DNA from: Alistipes indistinctus YIT 12060
GTDB taxonomy: Bacteria > Bacteroidota > Bacteroidia > Bacteroidales > Rikenellaceae
Direction of reading: 5' to 3'
Assembly: GCF_025144995.1 (NCBI RefSeq)
Contig: NZ_CP102250.1
Span: 1,488,001 to 1,552,000 of the forward strand
Length of the DNA: 64,000 bases
This document shows positions 31,016 to 35,278 of this stretch, piece after piece (position 1 is the stretch's first letter; every line of letters starts with the position of its first letter). The notes beneath the pieces were generated by a model. It did no database searches. It was not told where the DNA came from and saw only the letters and a program-made list of their open reading frames with translations. The translations under genes and the position numbers were made by a program.

Positions 31016-31963
31016 ATGTCAAAAATCGCAAAAAAACTGACCGACCTGATCGGCAATACCCCCCTGCTAGAACTTTCGAACTTCAATAAGAAATACGCGC
31101 CGAACGCTGCCATCATCGGCAAGCTGGAATATTTCAATCCGGGCGGCAGCGTCAAAGACCGCATCGCATTGGCAATGATCGAAGACGCTGAAAACAGAGG
31201 GTTGCTCAAACCGGGCAGCGAGATCATCGAGCCGACCAGCGGCAACACCGGAGTGGGCCTTGCGCTCGTCGCAGCGGCCAAAGGTTATAAACTGACGTTA
31301 ACAATGCCTGACACGATGAGTATCGAACGGCGCAATTTGCTGAAAGCGCTCGGAGCGAATATCGTGCTGACGCCGGGTGCGGAAGGGATGAAAGGGGCTA
31401 TCGCAAAGGCAGAAGCGCTACGCGACGAGCATCCGGGAGCGATCATCCTGCAACAATTCGAAAATCCGGCCAATCCGGCCGTACACAAACGCACGACCGC
31501 CGAAGAGATATGGCGCGACACCGACGGGAAAGTCGATATTTTCATAGCCGGCGTCGGTACCGGCGGTACCGTCAGCGGGGTCGGTGCACGGCTCAAAGAG
31601 TTAAACCCGAAAATCAGGATCGTTGCCGTCGAACCGGCCGATTCGCCCGTCCTTTCGGGGGGTAAACCGGGTCCGCACAAAATCCAGGGTATCGGCGCAG
31701 GATTCATTCCGAAAACATACAATGCGGCGGCGGTAGACCAGATCATCACGGTGTCGAATGACGACGCCATCCGCACTTCCCGCGAACTTGCCTGTACCGA
31801 AGGCCTGCTGGTCGGTATCTCGGCCGGCGCCGCGACCTATGCGGCTACGCAACTGGCGGCCGATCCAAAAAATAAAGGCAAAGAGATCGTCGTATTGCTG
31901 CCCGATACCGGCGAACGTTACCTGTCCACGGTATTGTACGCATTCGACGAATATCCTTTATAA
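31016..31963 (+). CDS. cysK: Cysteine synthase A (O-acetylserine sulfhydrylase)
   Basis: 315 residues. The PLP lysine is Lys47 in [12 protein letters not shown]. The substrate loop [10 protein letters not shown], phosphate-binding [12 protein letters not shown], and the C-terminal SAGAATYA and [11 protein letters not shown] are intact. It joins sulfide with O-acetylserine to make cysteine, using the product of cysE. It has its own promoter and stands alone. Confidence 0.96.
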
Positions 31964-32267: not shown

Positions 32268-32972
32268 TCAGATACAATATTCCGCCACGTCGATAATTCC
32301 CGCCCGCATGGCATACTTCGTCGCCTCATGCACGTTATTTACGCCGAGTTTGCGAAAGATATTCTTTCGGTGCGTGATAACGGTGTGGAACGAAACATAA
32401 CGGTCAGCAGCAATTTCACGCGTCGTGCGCCCCAATGCGATTTCACGCAAAACAGCCTGTTCGGTCGGGGTCAGCGAATGTACGGAAGGCATCGAAACAA
32501 CCGGATGCAGCATCCCGGACGATACGGTGTCCGCAGACATCCCACCCGTACCGGACTGTTCGGGGTACGCCGGCGTATCACGGATCGACTCACAGACGTA
32601 CCCCCTGCCCTGCATTACGGCTTCAAACGCGGCCTCTATCTCATCCGAATCGCATCTTTTGAGTACCACGCCGAAAGGCCTCTCCCCACGCAAACTACAA
32701 TGCAACAGTGAACCGACCAGGGTCTCCGAGAAGAGCATCCAACCGCTGCACGGATACCGATCGCGTAAAATGCAAAGTTCTTCGACCCGGTTGAAATCGA
32801 ACCACGCGTAATCCAGAATGACGACTGCATCGGGAGCCAGTCGCAAATTCCGGATCAAATCACTCTTACTCCGGGCTTCGCAAACAGCACCCACAGCCGG
32901 GTTACGAGCAAACAATGCCCGCAATCCGGCCCGGGTAATATCCTGGTTATCGGCAATAATTAATGTCCTCAT
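32268..32972 (-). CDS. Orphan LuxR/NarL-type response regulator
   Basis: 234 residues. The N-terminal receiver begins MRTLIIADNQDITRAGLRAL, with the likely phospho-acceptor Asp54 in VVILDYAWFD and Lys in VVLKRCDSDE. The usual second acidic residue after the first is Asn (ADN), and the D-x-x-M-P pattern is absent, so phosphorylation control may be altered. A 35-residue linker leads to a LuxR helix-turn-helix: LTPTEQAVLREIALGRTTRE, then TVITHRKNIFRKLGVNN. No histidine kinase is adjacent. I believe it belongs to a regulator type widely kept in Bacteroidales; its targets are unknown. Confidence 0.9.
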   Translation of the reverse strand: MRTLIIADNQDITRAGLRALFARNPAVGAVCEARSKSDLIRNLRLAPDAVVILDYAWFDFNRVEELCILRDRYPCSGWMLFSETLVGSLLHCSLRGERPFGVVLKRCDSDEIEAAFEAVMQGRGYVCESIRDTPAYPEQSGTGGMSADTVSSGMLHPVVSMPSVHSLTPTEQAVLREIALGRTTREIAADRYVSFHTVITHRKNIFRKLGVNNVHEATKYAMRAGIIDVAEYCI

Positions 32973-33111: not shown

Positions 33112-34434
<1,323 letters not shown>

Positions 34435-34548
34435 TTATAAGATTTAACGGATTCGGTTCGATGTTATCGGGTCATCTCCATGTCGGGCCGGTATCCTGTC
34501 CGGGCACTTCTCCGCCGGAACCCCTCTTGCAGTAAACCCGGCTAAAAC

Positions 34549-34576
34549 AAAAAAAGCCCGGCTTAACAGCCGGACT
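34549..34576 (-). terminator. Attenuator terminator upstream of metY
   Basis: On the minus strand AGTCCGGCT - GTTA - AGCCGGGCT forms a nine-pair stem (one G-U), then seven T. It sits 33 bases after the leader-peptide stop and about 135 bases before metY, so it would stop transcription before the gene. Its left arm (GAAGTCCGGC) is complementary to a segment inside the leader frame. Confidence 0.85.
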
Positions 34577-34635
34577 TCTATGGTGTCTACTCAATACGTA
34601 AAGGTTCGATCAAGGCAACAGCGGAAGTGTCCGGC
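34569..34635 (-). promoter_or_regulatory. Predicted antiterminator pairing in the metY leader
   Basis: GCCGGAC at 34629-34635 (read on the minus strand) pairs with GTCCGGC at 34569-34575. The helix extends by TTC/GAA past a two-base AC bulge. It excludes the terminator because it uses the same left arm. A third element, CAACAGC (34673-34679) with GCTGTTG (34616-34622), could form a protector hairpin around the Met codons. Confidence 0.65.
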
Positions 34636-34687
34636 ATAAGCTGGAAGGCATACACATGGACATCATCATACGGCTGTTGTAATTCAT
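34610..34687 (-). CDS. Methionine-rich leader peptide controlling metY
   Basis: A 25-codon frame, ATG 34685-34687 to TGA 34610-34612. Its core reads NSRMMMSMCMPSS: ATG at codons 1, 7, 8, 9, 11 and 13, so five Met codons in a seven-codon block. Two Cys codons (12 and 18) are also present. The frame remains open upstream, but the promoter box at 34712-34719 makes this start the sensible one; a GTG one codon earlier is possible. Codons 18-22 contain GCCGGAC(AC)TTC, able to pair with GAAGTCCGGC of the terminator's left arm. A ribosome stalled on the Met codons would leave that segment free to form an antiterminator. A ribosome finishing the peptide lets the terminator form. This is the layout of classical amino-acid attenuation; the mechanism is inferred, not shown. 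Confidence 0.8.
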   Translation of the reverse strand: MNYNSRMMMSMCMPSSLCRTLPLLP

Positions 34688-34711
34688 CACTATTCGTATA
34701 TCGTTCTTTGG

Positions 34712-34719
34712 CAAATATA
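34712..34719 (-). promoter_or_regulatory. -7 box for the metY leader
   Basis: Reads TATATTTG on the minus strand, a full TAnnTTTG match. Transcription would begin near 34705, about 18 bases before the leader-peptide ATG. The promoter lies downstream of the GNAT gene, so the leader is an independent unit. Confidence 0.6.
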
Positions 34720-34801: not shown

Positions 34802-35278
34802 TCAGCTCAGCGTTTTGTACATCAAAAAGTTAGTCAACAAAACGCCGCCTCGATCGATTTGCTGTTCCCGATCCACCCGATAACCTTTTCGCTCAAAAAA
34901 GGGCCGGGCCGTCAAACTCACTTCGGAAGTGATCCGAACGGCACCCTGCATATGCGCATATGCTTCCGCCTGCTCCAACAATCCCGATCCGATGCCCCGG
35001 CTTTGGTATTCCGCATGCACGAACAGCGAATGTAGATACCCCCGATCGACTGCTGTAAAACCGAGTATCGCTCCATCCGTATCCCGTTCGGCAAGAATAA
35101 ACCGGAGCGCTCCGGAGAAGAGCCCGTCCCACCGCTTCGGCGTTGCGCCTCCCGTCCAGGCTGCAATCTGTTCCGGTGAATAGTCCCGGCTGTTGATACG
35201 ACAAACCGTCTCCCGAAACAGTTCAGCCAATACACCGATATCCTTTTTTGTTCCATTCCGAAAATGAATGGATTCCAT
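34802..35278 (-). CDS. GNAT-family N-acetyltransferase
   Basis: 158 residues. The acetyl-CoA-binding core is clear: GAILGFTAVDRGYLHSLFVH (beta-4) and the pyrophosphate loop QSRGIGSGLLEQAEAYA. The C-terminal VSLTARPFFERKGYRVDREQ is typical of the YafP/ElaA-like group. The substrate is unknown. Unusually for this chromosome, a strong Shine-Dalgarno (AAGGAG, six bases before ATG) and a palindrome TGTGT-A-ACACA precede the start. Confidence 0.88.
   Translation of the reverse strand: MESIHFRNGTKKDIGVLAELFRETVCRINSRDYSPEQIAAWTGGATPKRWDGLFSGALRFILAERDTDGAILGFTAVDRGYLHSLFVHAEYQSRGIGSGLLEQAEAYAHMQGAVRITSEVSLTARPFFERKGYRVDREQQIDRGGVLLTNFLMYKTLS

Follow-up and report, generated by a model that had tools for sequence, protein, structure and literature searches.

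A putative methionine-codon attenuator before metY in Alistipes indistinctus and related Bacteroidales

Bacterial methionine control is usually ascribed to SAM riboswitches, T-boxes or repressors. In Alistipes indistinctus YIT 12060, a short reading frame rich in Met codons and a hairpin followed by a run of T stand before metY, raising the question of how this gene is controlled and what its leader might sense. We analysed the locus within a stretch of 64,000 nucleotides (contig NZ_CP102250.1, positions 1,488,001 to 1,552,000; hereafter the window, in whose numbering all positions are given). Comparison with relatives and predicted folds make it highly probable, at roughly 0.88 by our own estimate, that the leader is a ribosome-mediated transcription attenuator that would read charged elongator Met-tRNA, and perhaps also Cys-tRNA.

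Parts of the metY leader

The MetY protein passes TIGR01326 (O-acetylhomoserine aminocarboxypropyltransferase/cysteine synthase) with 636 bits against a cut-off of 495. Since TIGR01326 is a subfamily model and none of the narrower models listed for the protein reaches its own cut-off, the profile match does not fix the exact substrate of MetY. The upstream neighbour, an acetyltransferase-like gene at 34802-35278, is co-directional with metY. Near metY, on the opposite strand, lies cysK (cysteine synthase A, TIGR01139 over cut-off; 31016-31963, plus strand); a LuxR-type response-regulator-like gene (32268-32972) separates the two. The parts of the proposed element are as follows:

34712-34719, minus strand: promoter -7 box TATATTTG, of the Bacteroidota TAnnTTTG type (sequence read; consensus from the accessible part of PMC7366714)
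34610-34687, minus strand: candidate leader peptide frame of 25 codons, MNYNSRMMMSMCMPSSLCRTLPLLP, then stop (sequence read)
34649-34669, minus strand: control codons, Met 7, 8, 9, 11 and 13 with Cys 12 (sequence read)
34673-34679, minus strand: region 1, candidate protector arm CAACAGC, pairing with 34616-34622 (minimum-energy structure)
34616-34622, minus strand: second arm of the protector stem, GCTGTTG (minimum-energy structure)
34624-34635, minus strand: region 2, antiterminator 5' arm GCCGGAC-AC-TTC, within the frame (predicted fold with region 3 in a stalled, truncated transcript)
34569-34578, minus strand: region 3, shared arm GAAGTCCGGC, antiterminator 3' arm and terminator 5' arm (sequence, alignment, predicted fold)
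34549-34562, minus strand: region 4, GCCGGGC then seven T, intrinsic terminator (terminator scan, sequence)
33112-34413, minus strand: metY, O-acetylhomoserine/O-acetylserine sulfhydrylase type, the proposed regulated gene (TIGR01326 over cut-off)

An earlier note made from this sequence had described the promoter box and a 25-codon frame with Met codons 7, 8, 9, 11 and 13, and these were borne out to the base: the frame runs from ATG at 34687 to the stop codon TGA at 34612-34610 and also holds Cys codons 12 and 18. The pairings it had named, of GCCGGAC (core of region 2, 34635-34629) with GTCCGGC (core of region 3, 34575-34569), of GTCCGGC with GCCGGGC (34562-34556) ahead of seven T (34555-34549), and of CAACAGC with GCTGTTG, were confirmed in every coordinate. 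For the hairpin, the position, the seven T and the 135 bases from the T run to the start of metY (34413) stood, and the proposed nine pairs became 12 when flanking A-T and G-T pairs were counted.

For this element we infer a transcription start, translation of the leader, a response to methionine and a direction of control. Transcription would start just past the TATATTTG box, and a ribosome would begin the 25-codon leader. Were Met-tRNA scarce, the ribosome would stall within codons 7-13, breaking the protector stem and leaving region 2 (GCCGGAC) free to pair with region 3 (GTCCGGC) once the latter was made; no terminator would form, and polymerase would read into metY, whose product homocysteine would feed methionine synthesis. 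Were Met-tRNA plentiful, the ribosome would reach the stop codon, region 2 would be covered or folded back on region 1, and regions 3 and 4 would then form the terminator, ending transcription 135 bases before metY.

Of the window's 2,996 short frames, the leader frame alone contains five Met in eight codons, and the one further frame with four Met in eight codons lies antisense inside another frame. The predicted RNA fold of 34545-34700 has a z score of -3.7, none of 200 shuffles being as stable. A terminator scan detects the metY-leader terminator, the region yielding 2 sites against 1.3 expected by chance. A scan of the region for E. coli-type promoters gave no site. No second leader was found in the A. 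indistinctus genome, where a pattern search gave 39 places (19 in the reversed control) and, among the 30 checked, only the metY leader fitted; the covariance model described below also has one match in this genome.

Conservation of the leader and its association with metY

To follow the leader through relatives, we ran a covariance model built from nine leaders over 268 genomes of the family and 393 genomes drawn from the order. Strong matches (at least 55.8 bits) numbered 29 in the family genomes and 1 (G797) in another family of the order, 8 of these 30 being in the training set. Every other match listed scored at most 35 bits and was treated as noise on score alone, and divergent true relatives are possibly among them. 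Each of the 30 strong matches is followed by a MetY homologue that shares its strand and lies no more than 230 nt from region 2, so that among strong matches the association with metY is exclusive. Reading of upstream regions found the leader in Alistipes sp. dk3624 (L002/L031), a goat-gut Rikenellaceae metagenome-assembled genome (MAG; L003/L032) and Alistipes montrealensis (L053), as well as on two contigs of a Prevotellaceae MAG (L033, L034) and in further relatives.

The MetY homologues behind the leaders are 46-100% identical to the window protein and fall into two groups, one at 46-49% (L226-L229, L233, L234, L236-L239, L241-L251, L253) and one at 68-100% (L223-L225, L230-L232, L235, L240). 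Homologous leaders before both groups suggest that the gene was replaced behind a kept leader, or the reverse. Across 250 family genomes searched, the leader was present in 18 of the 53 with MetY at an E value of 1e-140 or better and in each of the 8 whose MetY shows 69% identity or more; within the genus of A. indistinctus it occurs in 2 of 9 genomes.

The geometry of the element is tightly kept. All 30 loci have the GCCGG core of region 2, and the last Met codon lies exactly 13 nt before it, a fixed spacing to which common descent contributes. In 28 of 30 loci the stop codon follows the seven-base antiterminator arm at a distance of 1 nt, close enough for a ribosome at the stop to lie over the arm; in the window and in L235 the distance is 16 nt, and termination in the window would therefore rely on the protector stem. 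When the 27 non-redundant leaders are anchored on the last Met codon (present in 27/27 by choice of anchor), the position two codons earlier holds Met in 25, and the positions four, five and six codons earlier hold it in about 80%; the overall number stays at 3-6 Met in 8 codons while positions shift. Leader codons further upstream are close to random, with third codon positions least variable, and the N-terminal half of the leader thus carries no sign of peptide conservation. In 28 of 30 loci a TAnnTTTG box lies no more than 150 nt ahead of the last Met codon, against about one expected from mononucleotide shuffles; in 22 of 30 such a box precedes the first in-frame ATG by 20-40 nt.

Cys codons stand in or beside the Met run in 22 of the 27 leaders. 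Since the other five lack them, Met appears to be the input that all share, with Cys optional, and Cys-tRNA is, from the leader codons, a plausible second input. As for neighbouring steps of the pathway, a profile search of the A. indistinctus genome did not find the metA family PF04204, and metH is present.

The earlier note had proposed searching relatives for conserved Met codons with compensatory changes in the pairing arms. Its attenuator reading is supported by 30 loci that retain the Met run, the antiterminator and the terminator, each locus preceding a metY homologue; compensatory change, on the other hand, is almost absent inside the GCCGG family. Covariation there does not stand out from chance: 122 of 500 shuffles attain the paired percentage observed. 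Because the pairing core is invariant, covariation statistics are uninformative within this family.

A survey of metY upstream regions showed that the same architecture is kept with other pairing sequences in other lineages. The sample, 189 non-redundant regions of up to 450 nt, is non-random: its sources include 80 loci that are the best of 573 confirmed relatives and 40 regions picked for family spread. A short frame with at least four Met in eight codons followed by a terminator was found in 20 of the 189 regions and in none of their reverse complements, on which terminators themselves are rarer (9 versus 62 forward). Regardless of terminators, Met runs occur in 24 forward regions and no reverse ones, and each of 20 dinucleotide-shuffled sets gave 0-1 (27 minus-strand loci were left unturned there, where the forward count is 23). 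Runs of other residues before a terminator are fewer, with Arg at 7, Cys at 6 and Pro at 5, making the 20 for Met the most.

Ten of these 20 leaders, from eight Rikenellaceae loci and two Prevotellaceae contigs, carry GCCGG, and the other ten have different sequences. GTGAGAAT is matched with TTCTCAC in a Kapabacterium (L055), an Ignavibacterium (L069) and two more families (L159, L172); GGAGTGG with CCATTCC, G-U pairs included, in L138 and L154; and CGAAGGG with CCCTTCG in L178 and L179. L153 has a short antiterminator match and L063 none that is convincing. Runs of Cys codons occur in L055, L159 and L172. In 12 of the 20 leaders the antiterminator match is better than in at least 95% of shuffles, which is not so for the remaining 8 (L003, L004, L063, L069, L111, L113, L114, L153). 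Left out of the 20 were L072 (a Met/Cys-rich frame with a hairpin below threshold), L070 (probably chance), and L012 and L014.

Some metY genes are preceded by more than one element. Two Met-codon leaders stand in tandem about 350 to 60 bases before metY in L178 and L179; each has a scanned CCCTTC/GAAGGG terminator in L179, and the second one of L178 is imperfect, recognised by eye. In L063, at about 2590-2950, a Met leader with its own terminator is followed by a SAM-I riboswitch (2758-2877), a second terminator and metY, possibly forming a two-signal gate. In L012 and L014, both from Bacteroidales, a SAM-I riboswitch and then a short Met-rich frame lie within about 350 bases before metY, and the terminator scan found no intrinsic terminator after that frame.

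SAM-I riboswitches precede metY in 4 of 20 and 12 of 20 loci in two chosen sets. They are found in 5 of the 268 Rikenellaceae genomes and in none of the 29 with a Met leader, under strict filters that may lose weak matches; given this rarity, most of the family presumably controls its methionine genes another way. An exchange of one control for another at metY, between SAM-I and the Met leader, thus appears visible in the compared sequences. We regard it as possible, though somewhat doubtful, that attenuators reading Met and Cys arose repeatedly on metY in Bacteroidota-type lineages, swapping with SAM-I and sometimes stacking into gates of at least two signals.

Predicted folds and competing explanations

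Folding of the leader RNA is compatible with both of the proposed structures. A stalled ribosome was represented by releasing the RNA 10 nt past the last Met codon and cutting it short of region 4; the minimum-energy structure then has regions 2 and 3 paired in 30 of 30 cases, 27 leaders together with L234, L244 and L253. With the ribosome at the stop codon the terminator also forms in 30 of 30; these folds comprise only the RNA past the ribosome and are thus chiefly evidence of terminator stability. In folds with no ribosome, region 2 pairs mostly with upstream sequence in 23 of 27 leaders, with downstream sequence in 1, and is mostly unpaired in 3, implying that an untranslated leader would default to termination. 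The protector suggested in the earlier note is supported to the extent of this upstream pairing, and conservation of the exact CAACAGC/GCTGTTG pair is not. The 13-nt spacing in all 30 loci means that a ribosome at the control codons would leave the antiterminator arm free, an argument that uses the size of the ribosome footprint.

For the full-length RNA at equilibrium, masking the Met run still leaves the terminator as the preferred structure in 24 of 27 leaders (the 30 less L234, L244 and L253), so antitermination would have to be kinetic, decided during transcription, as is likewise believed for the trp leader. The same preference could be taken to favour a different mechanism, in which leader translation controls metY through Rho-dependent termination or coupling and not through a switch between 2:3 and 3:4 pairings, and the Met-rich frames behind SAM-I in L012 and L014, with no intrinsic terminator found by scan, point the same way. 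Such a mechanism needs no complementarity between regions 2 and 3, yet this complementarity is kept with differing sequences in several lineages, and we consider the alternative quite unlikely.

The arrangement of the genes allows another reading, in which the hairpin is the terminator of the acetyltransferase-like gene, the Met frame is chance and the metY promoter lies further downstream: the terminator does stand between two co-directional genes, and the 135 bases left before metY have room for a promoter. This is made very improbable by the 30 of 30 loci in which the element stays with metY although the DNA further upstream differs in those compared, with an acetyltransferase-like gene in the window, tRNA genes in L003 and other sequence in L002 and L004. 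The 20 forward against 0 reverse Met runs with terminators argue against a chance frame, which was also rejected on the single frame with five Met in eight codons among 2,996 in the window and on Met runs occurring forward, never in reverse and at most once per set in shuffled sequence.

Because in other genomes this place is taken by SAM-I riboswitches, we considered whether a metabolite riboswitch or T-box could sense SAM or tRNA directly, with the frame incidental. At the window leader no Rfam family reaches its gathering score, and at E values up to 10 the best of 17 matches has 22.1 bits against a required 55. SAM-I (RF00162) was rejected, having no match at the leader or elsewhere in the A. 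indistinctus genome; the T-box was rejected as absent among the Rfam matches at the leader at E up to 10; and the amino-acid operon leaders of Rfam stayed below gathering score (Trp_leader 15.9 bits versus 41, Thr_leader 13.8 versus 55). The sequence upstream of the Met block is, moreover, nearly random among homologues, unlike an aptamer, and we give direct sensing hardly any credence. That the Met/Cys-rich peptide has a function of its own in trans, such as that of a small protein binding metal, with the terminator secondary, would suit the joint enrichment of Cys and Met (Cys near the run in 22/27 leaders) and is scarcely believable given the unconserved N-terminal half, the five leaders without Cys near the run, the coincidence of conserved C-terminal residues with antiterminator nucleotides, and the region 2/region 3 pairing kept by leaders of other sequence.

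The attenuator reading accounts for a frame of product codons, a terminator before the gene, an antiterminator that shares an arm with it and is kept in relatives, and a suitable spacing. By the defining features that can be tested on sequence, the element is one that would work like a classical ribosome-mediated attenuator.

Relation to known systems and meaning for methionine control

In the general scheme of attenuation, a leader frame rich in codons for the product precedes mutually exclusive antiterminator and terminator structures, and the target is a gene of the product's pathway. This scheme is also set out in the accessible parts of PMC8079986 and PMC1183508. The metY element shares with the trp, his, leu and thr attenuators (Rfam Trp_leader, His_leader, Leu_leader and Thr_leader) the end-product-codon leader, the mutually exclusive antiterminator and terminator and a target in the product's pathway, and differs from them in its Met and often Cys codons, its metY target and its setting in Bacteroidota. 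Excerpts of PMC3766115 name leaders for His, Trp, Thr and Leu in Rfam, and PMC2965389, as far as its accessible text goes, places leader peptides in Proteobacteria, Actinobacteria and, newly, Firmicutes.

Our searches of open-licence full-text literature yielded no Met-codon attenuator for metY and no measured methionine response in this lineage. The one published instance of Met specificity that we met is a prediction from Streptomyces lividans TK24: metL, the Met/Cys leader MSTTSDRTPATEATTTPGARCMCRRMCAF upstream of metNIQ (PMC8079986, in excerpt). Like the metY element, metL is a predicted Met/Cys leader before a methionine gene or operon; it differs in belonging to Actinobacteria, preceding an importer operon and being known from one genome, and its authors state, in the same excerpt, that the typical Rho-independent terminator is missing. 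The available portion of PMC1262725 describes Actinobacteria methionine operons without conserved upstream RNA structures and Cys leaders before cys operons, and that of PMC6892785 describes Corynebacterium glutamicum attenuation at ilv, aro, trp and leuA, with metY appearing only in a table of transcript changes.

The methionine-responsive 5'UTR of the Xanthomonas campestris met operon (PMC6230763) resembles our proposal in being found in a Gram-negative bacterium; in the accessible sections of that paper, control is mainly translational, the operon is metA-metB-hom, and the word "leader" is absent from the main text. Within Bacteroidota, the SAM-I riboswitch (RF00162) takes the same site before metY but senses SAM with an aptamer. 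The Bacteroid-trp RNA (RF01692), which we take to be a trp leader attenuator, was found in 11 of 61 relatives' genomes at an E value of 0.001 (6 over cut-off), the genus of A. indistinctus included, and was not found in the A. indistinctus genome itself. It is a Bacteroidetes element named for trp (PMC2864571, in excerpt) and belongs to a different family from the metY leader. The accessible part of PMC7366714 reports Bacteroides 5'UTRs with short frames reminiscent of leader peptides and contains no methionine case. As far as we searched, the kind of control proposed here is known, and its Met specificity and its setting at metY in Bacteroidota are new.

If the attenuator reading is true, methionine, and perhaps cysteine, would be added to the few amino acids that bacteria sense by translating a leader, and this in a phylum that comprises dominant gut bacteria and has been poorly mapped for RNA control. 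The leader would also offer a case of exchange between a riboswitch and a leader peptide at one gene, and would imply that transcription and translation in Bacteroidota are coupled closely enough for attenuation.
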